Below are positions 4,275 to 9,292 of a stretch of 64,000 bases of DNA, one piece after another. Both the position numbers and the translations under genes were made by a program. Source of the stretch: Limnochorda sp. L945t (lineage in GTDB: Bacteria; Bacillota; Limnochordia; Limnochordales; Geochordaceae); assembly GCF_035593305.1 (NCBI RefSeq), contig NZ_CP141615.1, positions 2,201,722 to 2,265,721 on the forward strand, read 5' to 3'. How positions within the stretch are numbered: position 1 is the stretch's first letter; every line of letters begins with the position of its first letter. The notes beneath the pieces were generated by a model. It saw nothing but the letters and a program-made list of their open reading frames with translations, did no database searches and was not told the origin of the DNA.

Positions 4275-5669
4275 ATGGCCACGAGAATCGGCAGCGACGA
4301 GCAGATGCAGGCGCCCGCCGCCACGATGCTCGATCCCTCCCGGTTGCCTTACCCCTTCTGCCCGGGATGCGGTCACGGGCACATCCTCGACGCCCTGGAC
4401 CGGGCGCTCGTGCGCCTCGGTAGGCCGGCCCACGAGGTCGCCATCGTCACCGATATCGGGTGCGTGGGCCTGTCCGACCAGTACTTCGTGACCCACGCCT
4501 TTCACGGGCTGCACGGGCGGGCCGTCACCTACGCGACGGGCATCAAGCTGGCGCGGCCCGAGCTGACCGTCGTCGTGCTGATCGGGGACGGCGGCTGCGG
4601 CATCGGCGGCCACCACCTCATCAGCGCCGCCCGGCGCAACGTCGGCGTCACGGTGCTGGTCTTCGACAACTTCAACTTCGGGATGACGGGCGGGCAGCAC
4701 TCCGTGCTCACCCCTTCCGGCAGCATCACGGCCACGACGCCCGCCGGCAACCTCGAGGCCCCGATGGACGTGGCGGCGACCGCAGCGGTCAACGGCGCAT
4801 CCTTCGTCGCCCGCACCACCGCGTTCGACCCCGGGCTCGACGCCCTCATTTACGAGGCCCTGTCGACGGACGGGTTCGCCCTGCTGGACATCTGGGAGCT
4901 GTGCACGGCGTACTTCGTGCCCAACAACCGGTTCAGCCGCAAGGCCATGGAAGCCATGCTCGCCTCGAGCGGCATGGCCTCCGGCGTGCTGGTGCACAGG
5001 CAGCGCCCGGAGCTTGCCAGGACCCTGGCCTCGGCCTCGCAGGGCGCCCCGGCCTCCCGGGTCGCACCGGCTGCAGGCGGCCGGGCAGGGGGCATCGAGC
5101 CCCGCTTCCAGAGCAGGCTCGAGCGGCGGCGCTCCCTCACCCTGGCGGGGGCGGCCGGCGAGAAGGTGCGGTCGGCGGCGACGGTGCTGGCCAGGGCGGC
5201 GGTGCTGTCCGGGCTGTACGCCACGCAGCGGGACGACTACCCGGTGACCGTCATGACCGGCCACTCGATCTCCGAACTCGTGGTCAGCCCGGAGCCTATC
5301 GGCTACACCGGCGTCCCGGCTCCGGACATCCTGGTGGTCACGGCCCCGGAGGGAGCCGGCGTCACCGCTTCGCTGCCATCCCGGATGGGGCCCGGCACAC
5401 GCATCTACGTCGAGCACAGCCTGGCAGGGCGTATCGGCGCCACCCGGGCGAGCGTCGAGCCTTTCTACGCCGATCGCCTCGGCAAGCGGGCGGCGGCACT
5501 GGCAGTGCTCGCGGCGGTGGCCGAGCGGGAAGGGCTGGTCAGCGCCGAAGCGCTGCGGGCATCCGTCGACATGGAAAGCCGCGAGACGGTCGCGCAGGAG
5601 ATGCGGCAGGCGCTCGAGGAGCGGCAGACCGTCTGGGAGCCGGCCGCTCCTTCCCGCAAGGTCACGTGA
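4275..5669 (+). CDS. 2-oxoacid:ferredoxin oxidoreductase, beta-gamma fusion (KorB-KorC)
   Basis: This 464-residue protein joins two subunits that are usually separate. Residues 20-235 are the TPP-binding beta subunit, with CPGCGHG (C29, C32), C63 and C210 as likely [4Fe-4S] ligands. The TPP/Mg motif runs from GDG at 105-107 to DNFNFGMTGGQ at 131-141. After an Ala/Gly-rich linker (about 250-285), residues 288-450 form a gamma-type Rossmann domain (AATVLARAAVLSGLYATQ..DYPVTVMTGHSISELVVS). ATG 4275 is chosen because it opens the beta domain just after the korA stop. Its last 8 bp overlap a convergent unknown gene. No ferredoxin gene is adjacent. Confidence 0.87.
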   Translation: MATRIGSDEQMQAPAATMLDPSRLPYPFCPGCGHGHILDALDRALVRLGRPAHEVAIVTDIGCVGLSDQYFVTHAFHGLHGRAVTYATGIKLARPELTVVVLIGDGGCGIGGHHLISAARRNVGVTVLVFDNFNFGMTGGQHSVLTPSGSITATTPAGNLEAPMDVAATAAVNGASFVARTTAFDPGLDALIYEALSTDGFALLDIWELCTAYFVPNNRFSRKAMEAMLASSGMASGVLVHRQRPELARTLASASQGAPASRVAPAAGGRAGGIEPRFQSRLERRRSLTLAGAAGEKVRSAATVLARAAVLSGLYATQRDDYPVTVMTGHSISELVVSPEPIGYTGVPAPDILVVTAPEGAGVTASLPSRMGPGTRIYVEHSLAGRIGATRASVEPFYADRLGKRAAALAVLAAVAEREGLVSAEALRASVDMESRETVAQEMRQALEERQTVWEPAAPSRKVT

Positions 5670-6201
5670 CCGGCCTCGTCCCGCCGGCACGGGAGACCCT
5701 GGCGTGGTGCCCGTTACGGGAGCCGGGGGCACCGGTCTTGTGATCCATGCCCGGGATGGGCACCGCCTCCAGTGCGATGAGCACGGCCCTGCCCCAGTTG
5801 GTGAGATCCACGTGGCGGACCTCCCACCTGGTCTCGGCACGCCGGCGGTTGCGGCAGTAGACCTGCACGAGCCCTGCCCGGCAAAGCGCCATCAACGCTT
5901 CGTGGAGCGTGGCCAGGTCACGGCGCGCCCTCTGGTGATCCCGTTCGATCAGCCGGTAAGGCCGCCCCTCGACCAGGGTTCTGGCGAGCTTGCGGGCCGT
6001 TTCCCAAACGTCCCGGGAAAGGGCGTCCGCCAGCTCTTCCAGGGTGGCCTTGCACAGGCCCCGGATCTGCTGGCCCACCGGGACCGGGCAGACCGAAACC
6101 AGGCCCTCGTCCCGTGCGACCAGGTGCTGGCGGCGGACCAGGTAGGGGCCCTCTCGCACCCAGGGGAGCCATACCTTGTCGGGTACCTCGTGGTGTTTCA
6201 T
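5662..6201 (-). CDS. Hypothetical protein, charged, Cys-containing
   Basis: I do not recognise this protein of about 179 residues. From ATG 6201 it begins MKHHEVPDKVWLPWVREG and is rich in Arg, with predicted helices (CKATLEELADALSRDVWETA and RRDLATLHEALMALCRAGLV) that look like a winged-helix or other small DNA-binding fold. Four scattered cysteines are present. The tail (about 150-179) is low-complexity and overlaps the convergent korB-korC end by 8 bp, so the natural stop may be poorly conserved. It is divergent from the 6347 gene. A transcription-factor-like role is only a guess. Confidence 0.5.
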   Translation of the reverse strand: MKHHEVPDKVWLPWVREGPYLVRRQHLVARDEGLVSVCPVPVGQQIRGLCKATLEELADALSRDVWETARKLARTLVEGRPYRLIERDHQRARRDLATLHEALMALCRAGLVQVYCRNRRRAETRWEVRHVDLTNWGRAVLIALEAVPIPGMDHKTGAPGSRNGHHARVSRAGGTRPVT

Positions 6202-6288
6202 CGATCCGGCCGTGGCGTAAGGCCTCCGTTTTCGGGTACGGCGGCCCGGGCGGGGCGCCGCGCCCGGGGTATGGTAAATTCGCATCGG

Positions 6289-6294
6289 TATTAT
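6289..6294 (-). promoter_or_regulatory. Candidate -10 box (TATAAT on the minus strand) in a divergent gap
   Basis: Read leftward, this hexamer is TATAAT in an AT-rich patch between two divergent unknown genes; read rightward it is ATTATA/TATTAT. No good -35 element is visible at 17 bp for either direction, so the assignment is weak. Confidence 0.3.
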
Positions 6295-6346
6295 AGGGGC
6301 ATGTTCGCCATCCCATCCCGCCGTCCTGGAGGGAGCGCGCGAGAAG

Positions 6347-6796
6347 GTGGACGACATGGTGAGTACCGTGGTCCTGGTGGCCGACGAGCTGGTCGACCGG
6401 CAACCGCGCGACCAGCTGGCGCGGAGTCTCGCCCGCGTCGCGTACGAGTCAGCGAAGCACCGGCGGGTCTGGGTGGTGGGGCCTCCCGGCCTGGTACCGG
6501 CGTCGCCGCCGGAGGGCGGTGCGTGGGAGCATGCGGAGAGCCTGTCGGACCTCCCGCCTCTTGCGGCCGGAAGAGGCAGCACAGTGCTGGTCGTGGGCGG
6601 CCGCCCGGAGCGCTCCATCCGGTGGGCCAACCGGCACCGCCTGAAGAGCGTGCTCGTCGTGCCCGAACCGGGGGAGGATCAGCAGCCCGGCAGCCTCGAC
6701 GAGGCCCCCGACTTCGTCCTGGAGTCGGTCGAGGACGTCCTCGGTCTCATCCGGCGCATCGAGCGGGAAGAGGGCGACTTCGAGGGCACGGAGTAG
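6347..6796 (+). CDS. Hypothetical small protein, possibly a degenerate HAD-like fold
   Basis: This is a 149-residue soluble protein that I cannot place with certainty. It has alternating beta strands and helices: VVLVADEL near the start, RRVWVVGPPGL, GSTVLVVGG, then ANRHRLKSVLVVPEPG and PDFVLESVEDVLGLIRRIE at the end. That last part resembles the C-terminus of HAD-family phosphatases (a PDxVIxSLxEL-like ending), but the catalytic DxD and GD motifs are missing. The GTG at 6347 has GGAGGG 12 nt upstream; ATG 6356 is an alternative. It appears to be transcribed alone. Confidence 0.6.
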   Translation: MDDMVSTVVLVADELVDRQPRDQLARSLARVAYESAKHRRVWVVGPPGLVPASPPEGGAWEHAESLSDLPPLAAGRGSTVLVVGGRPERSIRWANRHRLKSVLVVPEPGEDQQPGSLDEAPDFVLESVEDVLGLIRRIEREEGDFEGTE

Positions 6797-6831
6797 GGAG
6801 CAACGATCGGGTTCGTGCGACGAAGCCCGAA

Positions 6832-6861
6832 GGAGATCGATGGAGATCGAGGGAGATTTCG
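6832..6861. repeat. 10-bp tandem repeat, three copies
   Basis: GGAGATCGAT and GGAGATCGAG are followed by a degenerate third copy, GGAGATTTCG, in direct tandem. The array lies in the gap downstream of the 6347 gene and about 65 bp upstream of the promoter of the small-peptide unit. It could be a binding array or a slippage product. Confidence 0.5.
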
Positions 6862-6926
6862 CGGGGTTTCATCCTTCGTGCCAGTTACCTCCAGATGCCG
6901 CGCGGCGGGGGGTGGCGCGCGGCGCA

Positions 6927-6954
6927 TTGACCCGCCTGCGACCCGTGCTAGAGT
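6927..6954 (+). promoter_or_regulatory. Promoter of the small-peptide transcription unit
   Basis: The -35 box TTGACC (6927-6932) and -10 box TAGAGT (6949-6954) are separated by 16 bp, a fair sigma-A-type match in very GC-rich surroundings. The predicted transcript would start near 6961 and include a leader of about 125 nt before the 18-codon reading frame at 7087. Confidence 0.5.
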
Positions 6955-7052
6955 GATGGCAGAAATCGGGAGTGGTCATCCCGATGGGGGCCGCGTGGTC
7001 AGGAGCCCGAGGCGGCTTGCGACCGCCCGGCGTGTGGGCCTTGCTCCTGCAC

Positions 7053-7079
7053 GTCCCCTCCGGTGGAGAGGAGGTGGAC
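7053..7079 (+). promoter_or_regulatory. SD-sequestering hairpin upstream of the 18-codon ORF
   Basis: The arm 7053-7061 (GTCCCCTCC) pairs with 7070-7079 (GGAGG-T-GGAC) through nine base pairs with one bulged T and an eight-base loop. The right arm contains almost the whole SD (AGGAGGT, 7069-7075), 11 nt before ATG 7087. When folded, the ribosome site would be masked, so translation could be conditional on temperature, a ligand, a small RNA or transcript processing. The pairing is read directly from the sequence; the regulatory role is inference. Confidence 0.5.
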
Positions 7080-7086
7080 TCGTTCC

Positions 7087-7143
7087 ATGGAGAAGAAGCC
7101 CGCGAAGGAGACCAAGAAGCCGGCTCCGAAGAAGGAAAAGTGA
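7087..7143 (+). CDS. 18-residue lysine-rich peptide
   Basis: The peptide is MEKKPAKETKKPAPKKEK followed by TGA. It has eight lysines, three prolines and three glutamates, so it should be disordered and strongly basic, with no membrane segment. It has its own promoter (6927-6954), a strong SD (AGGAGGT, spacing 11) and a hairpin downstream (7196-7227), which together support a real gene despite its size. The composition suggests a nucleic-acid or ribosome-binding tail-like peptide, but the function is unknown. An overlapping 62-codon frame (6972-7160) has no SD and is less likely. The alternative is that the transcript acts as an RNA and the frame is incidental. Confidence 0.5.
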   Translation: MEKKPAKETKKPAPKKEK

Positions 7144-7195
7144 GCAGTCGTCCCTGGTAAGCGCAAGCATGCGACCAGTTCGCTGGCGTCAGGAA

Positions 7196-7227
7196 GGAAG
7201 CGCCCGAGCTCGAGCCCGGGCGCTTCC
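7196..7227. terminator. Hairpin terminator, possibly bidirectional
   Basis: GGAAGCGCCCG (7196-7206) pairs perfectly with CGGGCGCTTCC (7217-7227) over 11 bp with a 10-nt loop. It lies between the rightward peptide gene and the leftward Spy-like gene that ends at 7274. No good T-run follows on either strand, so its efficiency is uncertain. Confidence 0.6.
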
Positions 7228-7273
7228 TCGTTGCAGTCACCGGCATCGGCCGGCCGGCTCCGGTGGTGCCGGT

Positions 7274-7822
7274 TTACCAGCCCCAGCCCGGGCCCATCAT
7301 GCGGCCCATGCCGCCGCCACGGTAGCCGCGGCCCAGGCCGCCGCCGCACGGCCCCATGCCCAAACCGCCGCCGTAGGGCCCGAAGGTCGTGATCTTCGCC
7401 TTCTGCTCATCGGTCAAGACCGCCCGGATCGCCAGCTGAGTCTGCAGCCGCTGCTCCGCCAGCTTTTGCTGCAGCTGCCCGATCTCCTGCAGCAAGGACT
7501 TGGCCTTCGCCTGGTCCGGCTGCGCCTGCCGCAGCACCAGCGCCAGTTCCTGGCGCTTGGCCAGCAGTTGCTGCTGGATGGGCGCCGCCTCCTGATACGC
7601 CTTGGTCTGGATCTCCTGGATCTGGCTGATTTGCTGATCCGTCAGACCCAGCGCCTGCCACACCGGAGGCACGCTGCCCGCTGCGCCCCACGCTCCCGGC
7701 CCTGCCGCCCGGCCACGAGGAGGAGCCGCGAGGCCGACGGCGGCCACCGACACCACCAGGCCCAGCGCCGCCACGGCCACGATCCATGGCGTTACCCGCT
7801 TGCCCCGCATCCAGTCGCGCAC
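7274..7822 (-). CDS. Spy/CpxP-like periplasmic LTXXQ protein
   Basis: This is an exported, mostly helical protein of the Spy/CpxP/zinc-resistance-associated family, whose members act as envelope chaperones or metal sensors. It has an N-terminal signal or anchor (VTPWIVAVAALGLVVSVAAVGLA), then two LTxxQ-like motifs (LGLTDQQISQIQ and VLTDEQKAKI) flanking long Gln-rich amphipathic helices. The C-terminus is Gly/Met/Arg-rich (GGGLGMGPCGGGLGRGYRGG), which could bind metal. GTG 7822 is used, with AAAAGGGG upstream. It is monocistronic. Envelope or metal stress is the likely context, but no partner two-component system is nearby. Confidence 0.75.
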   Translation of the reverse strand: MRDWMRGKRVTPWIVAVAALGLVVSVAAVGLAAPPRGRAAGPGAWGAAGSVPPVWQALGLTDQQISQIQEIQTKAYQEAAPIQQQLLAKRQELALVLRQAQPDQAKAKSLLQEIGQLQQKLAEQRLQTQLAIRAVLTDEQKAKITTFGPYGGGLGMGPCGGGLGRGYRGGGMGRMMGPGWGW

Positions 7823-7981
7823 AGTCCATCGCCCCTTTTCTTGCCCTTTCGTCTGGGAGGGCGCCGTCCGGAGCCCGGCGCTCTGCCGACCCCCCGCGCC
7901 TCTCTCCGGGGCTTACTGTGCCATGACGCTCTGGTCCGCGTATGAAGGGATTGTGGAGATCCGAAGAAGCCCGGCCCCGGC

Positions 7982-9292
7982 TCATCCCGCCGCTCCCGGC
8001 AGCCCGTCCCACTCCGTGTCGGCCAGCAGGCGCACCCGCACCTCGGCCCCGGCCGGCAGCCGCTCCACCTCGACCGGGATGGCGACCAGCACCCGGGCTT
8101 CAGCCGGGGAGCGGACCGACGACGACGATTGGCGGGCCAGGGGTTCCACCACCAACCGGCCCCCCGAGAGCCACGCCCGGGCGCGCAACCACCTCAACCG
8201 CCCGGGGGTCATCTCGAGGGGCGTCGCGAGCGTACCCGTGAGCTCCGGAGGGTGCCAGGGATGTCCCAGCCACACCCTGACCAGTGGCCGCATGAAGAGC
8301 TCCGCGGCGACCATGGCGCCCCCGGGCGTGCCCGGCAGGCCAAAGACGGGGCGCCCGTCCCAGACCCCGAAAGCCACGGGCCGGCCCGGACGAATGGCGA
8401 CCCGGTGGAAGCGCCACTGCACCCCCAGAGCCGCCAGGGTGGCGTGCACCAGGTCCCGCAGGCCGACGCTCATGCCGCCCGTGATGGCCAGGGCGTCCGC
8501 CCGCTCCATGGCGGCCAGGACTGTATCGCGCAGCGCCCCCTCGTCGTCACGCGCCACGCCCGCCAGCCGCACGCTCGCCCCCCAGGCCCGAAGCTGTGCA
8601 CCCAGGGCGTAGGCGTTGCTGTTGCGCACCTGGCCGGGACCAAGGCGCGGGGCCGAGGCCTCCACCACTTCGTCGCCCGTTGCTACCACGGCAAAGACCG
8701 GGCGCCTGCGCACGCGGACCCTCACCCGCCCCAGCGCTGCGAGGAGCCCCACGGCTCCCGCCGTCAACATGCGGCCTTCCCGGAGGGCGACCTCCCCGGC
8801 CCTGATGTCCCCGCCTGCCGCGAACGTGTTGGCGCCCGTCCCGACGGGCCGCATCACCGCAATGGCCCCGCCGGGCTGCGGGGCGGTCACCTCCTGCGGC
8901 ACCACCGCGTCGGCCCCCGGCGGGAGAGGCACACCCGTCATCACCCGGACGCACTCCAGGGGGCCCACCCGCGCCGACGCCTGCGAACCGGCGGTCACCG
9001 TCTGGAGCACCCGCACGACGACCGGGCTCTTCTCAGAGGCCTGCTCCACGTCCCGGGCACGGACCGCGTACCCGTCCATCGTGGCGCGGCTGGCCAGGGG
9101 CACGTCCTCCTCCGCGACCACATCCTCGGCGAGCACTCGCCCGGCCGCCTCCTCCAACGAGACCTCCTCCGCCCCCACAGGCCCCAGCTCCCTGGCCGCG
9201 GCGAGCACGCGGGAAAGGGCCTGTTCGTATGAGAGCAGCCCCTCCAGGCCGACCTCGGGCGTGCCCCCGCTCGTGGCCGAGTCGTGCGTCAC
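7982..9292 (-). CDS. moeA: Molybdopterin molybdotransferase MoeA
   Basis: MoeA inserts molybdate into adenylylated molybdopterin in the last step of molybdenum cofactor synthesis. The 436-residue product has the expected order: an N-terminal MoeA domain with LSYEQALSRVL and VPLASRATMDGYAVRARDV, a central MoCF-binding domain with VFAVVATGDEVV, GQVRNSNAYALGAQLRAWGA and ALAITGGMSVG, and a C-terminal beta domain. GTG 9292 is chosen because it overlaps the cutA stop in a GTGA junction and places the conserved N-terminus correctly. No molybdoenzyme lies in the window. It is the last gene of the mutase-cutA-moeA run. Confidence 0.93.
   Translation of the reverse strand: MTHDSATSGGTPEVGLEGLLSYEQALSRVLAAARELGPVGAEEVSLEEAAGRVLAEDVVAEEDVPLASRATMDGYAVRARDVEQASEKSPVVVRVLQTVTAGSQASARVGPLECVRVMTGVPLPPGADAVVPQEVTAPQPGGAIAVMRPVGTGANTFAAGGDIRAGEVALREGRMLTAGAVGLLAALGRVRVRVRRRPVFAVVATGDEVVEASAPRLGPGQVRNSNAYALGAQLRAWGASVRLAGVARDDEGALRDTVLAAMERADALAITGGMSVGLRDLVHATLAALGVQWRFHRVAIRPGRPVAFGVWDGRPVFGLPGTPGGAMVAAELFMRPLVRVWLGHPWHPPELTGTLATPLEMTPGRLRWLRARAWLSGGRLVVEPLARQSSSSVRSPAEARVLVAIPVEVERLPAGAEVRVRLLADTEWDGLPGAAG

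Follow-up and report, generated by a model that had tools for sequence, protein, structure and literature searches.

A conserved 18-codon frame in Limnochordales that probably encodes a basic micropeptide

The 64-kb stretch of DNA analysed here (the window) contains what we regard, with moderate confidence, as a single-protein gene with its own promoter, whose 18-19-residue basic product would be disordered and would bind a polyanion. As judged by comparison with known genes, it would be of a kind already known, the bacterial small-protein gene, with a sequence family so far found only in Limnochordales, an order whose class has few cultivated representatives. An earlier note on this DNA had expected such a unit to escape gene callers, and the frame is indeed below their usual length limits and would be invisible to those with a 90-nt minimum. 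It is sequence comparison alone that makes the case for translation of a very small stand-alone gene. The compact transcription unit which that note had outlined, consisting of a promoter, a leader of about 125 nt, a Shine-Dalgarno (SD) sequence covered by a hairpin, an 18-codon frame and a perfect 11-bp hairpin, was recovered in full, including the 11-nt distance between AGGAGGT and the ATG (Table 1).

Table 1. Features of the micropeptide unit in the window (positions are those of the window)
Feature	Positions	Strand	Basis and details
Decamer array, four 10-bp direct repeats GACGAAGCCC GAAGGAGATC GATGGAGATC GAGGGAGATT	6819-6858	+	Lag-10 scan; shuffling
Promoter TTGACC-16-TAGAGT	6927-6954	+	TTGACC 6927-6932, 16-nt spacer, TAGAGT 6949-6954; only sigma-70-like site in 5000-9000; conserved in G001 and G002
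Leader, structured, not conserved between genera	6961-7068	+	Start site inferred 7 nt past the -10
Hairpin GUCCCCUCC...GGAGGUGGAC pairing the SD, present in the window species only	7053-7079	+	Arms 7053-7061/7070-7079; folding, comparison with relatives
SD AGGAGGT	7069-7075	+	Read in the sequence; GGGGAGG(A/G)GGTG kept in relatives
Probable micropeptide gene, 18-codon frame MEKKPAKETKKPAPKKEK + stop	7087-7143	+	ATG at 7087, TGA at 7141-7143; conserved in G041/Bu05, G001, G002 and G004
GC-rich 11-bp hairpin, probable terminator	7196-7227		Arms 7196-7206/7217-7227; GC-rich hairpin 3' of the frame also in G001, G002 and G004

Five Limnochordales genomes, from three genera and two families, each carry a single copy of the frame with its strong SD: the window genome (3.31 Mb), G041, which is of the same species, G001 (3.0 Mb) and G002, which are of the same family, and G004 (3.8 Mb), which is of another family; the window genome, G001 and G004 are each a single contig. 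The earlier note had proposed looking for its Lys/Pro-rich frame in related genomes, and there it is conserved. Searched for at the nucleotide level, the complete unit matched two same-family genomes within the frame alone and one other-family genome in the SD together with the frame, with 90-96% identity over the ~50 nt of the frame. Between genera, DNA identity is limited to the SD, the frame and the promoter block, the leader and the 3' region being not alignable. All five genomes have an ATG or GTG start codon, preceded in each copy by a strong SD (GAGAGGAGGTG in the window species) at 8-12 nt, a range of distances that is a little long. Four versions of the peptide were obtained, MEKKPAKETKKPAPKKEK, (V)EKKPAKETKKPAPEKKTK, (V)EKKPAKETKKPAPEKKAK and (V)AEKKPAKQTGKKPGSGK, all with a net charge of +5, in keeping with the description in the earlier note of a short basic peptide of no known family. 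Four substitutions set the three same-family versions apart within codons 2-14, each of them synonymous and at the third position (P ~0.002 under random placement, from few sequences and few substitutions). The G004 copy differs by an in-frame insertion of one Gly codon and by a shorter C-terminus, also in frame. Together, synonymous changes, in-frame indels and constant charge form the pattern of a translated frame, and the frame appears to be under purifying selection, as far as a small number of changes can indicate. Because it is conserved, the frame is far beyond chance. Low-complexity, Lys-rich peptides align easily, but conservation of the SD and promoter and the single-copy matches argue against coincidence.

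The promoter supports the same reading. Between positions 5000 and 9000, one sigma-70-like site was found against 0.2 expected from shuffling, and its counterparts in the relatives are CATTGCGG..GTGCTAGAGTGGTG in G001 and CATTGCGG..GGTACAGTGGTG in G002. The -10 and the bases that follow it are kept in the family (GTGCTAGAGTGATGGCAGAAATCGGGA / GTGCTAGAGTGGTGCCAGAAATCGAGA / ATGGTACAGTGGTGCCAGCAAACGGGA). Among 13 genomes searched with up to 3 mismatches, the block TAGAGTGRTGSCAGAAATCG (window 6949-6968) occurs once per genome, at the locus of the unit, in three same-family genomes and is absent from the ten others. Conservation of so unit-specific a block supports real transcription; it also reaches further than promoter function would require, a hint that the block holds a specific operator or that the 5' end is functional. 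In G001, a terminator-like hairpin lies within ~8 nt of the stop codon, so that the transcript could encode little more. A strict scan found no U tract after the 3' hairpin of the window.

Searches for further members yielded no homologue outside Limnochordales in GTDB 220 contigs, viral contigs, 73 genomes of the class and 398 genomes of the phylum. The pattern EKKPAK with an SD was found at 57 places in the GTDB 220 contigs, the sole true match being Limnochordaceae Bu05; the viral contigs held no true match, and the 398 phylum genomes nothing beyond the genomes already known to carry it. Weak f13 matches from a profile search of the 73 class genomes were judged spurious; those examined have in common a PAKxTKKPAP stretch within unrelated open frames of ~66-100 aa and lack the remainder of the peptide. 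Profile libraries accept proteins of at least 20 residues, so that a peptide of 18 is below their range.

We weighed several other readings of the same stretch. The purine-rich sequence could be a functional RNA, either a small RNA or a protein-binding site in which the peptide is incidental, or a dual-function RNA. The short transcript is strongly structured (z -2.05) and the high nucleotide identity within the frame would suit an RNA as well, but the confinement of family changes in codons 2-14 to synonymous third positions and the whole-codon indel of G004 speak against it, as does the retention of SD, start and stop codons in a transcript that is otherwise not conserved, structure included; we consider this reading rather unlikely. 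Far less credible is a longer protein that starts upstream of 7087 and has the frame as its C-terminal end. The frame does remain open upstream for 36-155 codons across the genomes, yet such openness is common in GC-rich DNA, these extensions have no common sequence, the one in G001 crosses the promoter, and conservation begins at the start codon, right after the SD. This reading was rejected on conservation. Equally improbable is an attenuator leader peptide controlling a downstream gene, which the succession of a short frame and a terminator-like hairpin would suggest; KKP and PAP motifs, such as those present in the micropeptide, can slow ribosomes. In the window, G001 and G002, however, the next gene downstream is convergent, on the opposite strand, so there is nothing to attenuate, and no alternative antiterminator pairing is common to the genomes. 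The gene order in same-family genomes thus contradicts an attenuator.

The earlier note had also proposed conditional translation, in which the hairpin at 7053-7079 hides the SD until heat, a ligand or a small RNA opens it. The hairpin folds as drawn there, and in the predicted window transcript the SD is paired with a probability near 1, a value matched by 2 of 100 shuffled leaders and thus moderately unusual. Over 51 nt around the hairpin, however, folding brings no more stability than in shuffled sequence (z -0.39; 61/200 as good). Nor does the occlusion stand out in this GC-rich DNA: of 43 window frames with a strong SD, which were chosen mechanically and are not verified genes, six are as occluded as the SD of the unit and 16 have an opening energy of at least 13.9, against 13.7 for the unit and a mean of 13.3. 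Predicted masking of an SD in GC-rich DNA is therefore weak evidence for a switch. The leader, ~126 nt in the window and varying from ~65 to 160 nt, has no conserved sequence past its first bases and is not alignable between genera. The CCUCC arm or an equivalent hairpin is absent from the relatives of other genera (G001, G002 and G004), where predicted SD accessibility is 0.40, 0.13 and 0.50, respectively. The SD is thus partly occluded in G002, through a different fold, and 40-50% free in G001 and G004, in both of which the start codon is predicted to be paired instead; the SD of G004 is more open than in nearly all shuffles of its leader. Opening energies of the ribosome-binding site do not stand out in G001 and reach no more than the borderline in G002 and G004 (fractions 0.59, 0.05 and 0.06). 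The compensatory changes that the earlier note had suggested looking for did not turn up, the hairpin being invariant between the two window-species genomes and missing from the relatives. That note had also named, as counting against its unit, relatives that keep the promoter and lose both hairpin and frame: promoter and frame are kept, and it is the hairpin that is lost.

A heat-operated switch fares no better. G041, of the window species, appears to be the MAG Limnochordaceae bacterium Bu05. That MAG belongs to Carboxydochorda subterranea, a species that grows at 37-60 °C with an optimum of 55 °C (PMC11456536). The predicted probability of the SD being unpaired stays at 0.004-0.026 from 30 to 65 °C, and pairing weakens only near 80 °C; pairing that lasts to 65 °C does not fit a thermometer when the host probably grows at 37-60 °C. 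SD-sequestering RNA thermometers such as fourU and ROSE likewise pair the SD in a hairpin, but the pairing arm here, in the window species, is CCUCC rather than UUUU, and the hairpin has no predicted melting in the growth range, is not conserved and has no Rfam match. At gathering scores, Rfam recovered only tRNAs in the 64-kb window, with no thermometer or riboswitch; at permissive thresholds there were chance matches in the unit, with no thermometer among the weak ones. As the hairpin is confined to the window species, a translational switch is possible but without comparative support. We regard conditional translation as distinctly unlikely and the SD-masking hairpin as probably incidental.

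Returning to a translated micropeptide, the mechanism we propose is as follows. A dedicated sigma-70-type promoter would give a short transcript, on which the strong SD would direct initiation of the 18-19-codon frame at ATG or GTG and whose end would be set by the GC-rich hairpin; the gene is apparently monocistronic. Expression level would be set mainly at transcription, perhaps via the upstream array of 10-bp repeats. The product would be a soluble, disordered Lys/Pro/Ala polycation (+5) and, to judge from its composition and conserved charge, would bind electrostatically to a polyanion, with RNA, ribosomes or DNA as the most likely target, much like a basic tail or a basic ribosomal protein of very small size. 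The conserved charge raises a direct question, that of the cellular binding partner of an 18-residue polycation. We put forward more tentatively, as a possibility we would not yet expect to hold in its entirety, that the unit represents a new family of micropeptides exclusive to Limnochordales, controlled by its own promoter and a 10-bp tandem-repeat control element, whose 18-19-residue polycation serves as a free-standing basic tail on ribosomes or the nucleoid.

Known systems offer partial parallels. As in bacterial small-protein (sORF) genes of fewer than 50 codons, there is an own promoter, an SD, a terminator-like hairpin and a short frame, whose length is below annotation cut-offs, but the sequence family matches no described one in these searches. 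Many characterised small proteins are a membrane helix, whereas the micropeptide is a hydrophilic polycation. Very small size and a strongly basic character are also found in ribosomal protein bTHX of Thermus (~26 aa) and in other basic ribosomal proteins of this kind; bTHX, however, is rich in Arg and Gly and has aromatic residues, whereas the micropeptide is Lys/Pro/Ala-rich and lacks them, and no sequence likeness between the two is known. The KKPAK/KPAPKK-type composition is that of the Lys/Pro/Ala-rich tails of histone H1-like proteins and of HU C-termini, but in this case the entire protein is tail-like and has its own gene.

The decamer array lies 68 nt 5' of the -35 and directly 3' of the upstream gene. 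It is the top lag-10 repeat of the window (24/30, the next scoring 18) and was equalled in 0 of 2000 shuffles for the window, 0 of 2000 for G001 and 1 of 2000 for G002, at the same place in the family; at the G004 locus, it is not significant (527/2000). From genus to genus, the sequence of the repeat diverges (AGATC, AGATT, GAGCNC). The 10-bp spacing of the direct repeats recalls the binding sites of OmpR/PhoB-type regulators, and the array is possibly a regulatory element, a response-regulator site, serving the micropeptide gene or the upstream gene. The motif AGATC-N5-AGATC did not turn up elsewhere in the genome, so no regulon can be drawn.

In the family, the unit sits between a gene for a 149-aa protein and a convergent Spy/CpxP-like gene, and in G004 it follows an M16-peptidase-like gene (a name given by the look of its sequence rather than by a profile search). 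These different neighbours indicate that the unit is autonomous and travels as one. The 149-aa protein (6347-6796, + strand) has no Pfam or NCBIfam match and, within the order, was found only in the four same-family genomes, at 38-98% identity. The convergent gene (7274-7822, - strand) encodes a Spy/CpxP/ZraP-like periplasmic protein (Metal_resist, LTXXQ) with a Gly/Met/Arg-rich C-terminus, and may share the 3' hairpin as its terminator. Within the 3' hairpin, the window has an A.C mismatch at 7207/7216; in Bu05 an A-U pair takes its place and extends the stem to a perfect palindrome.
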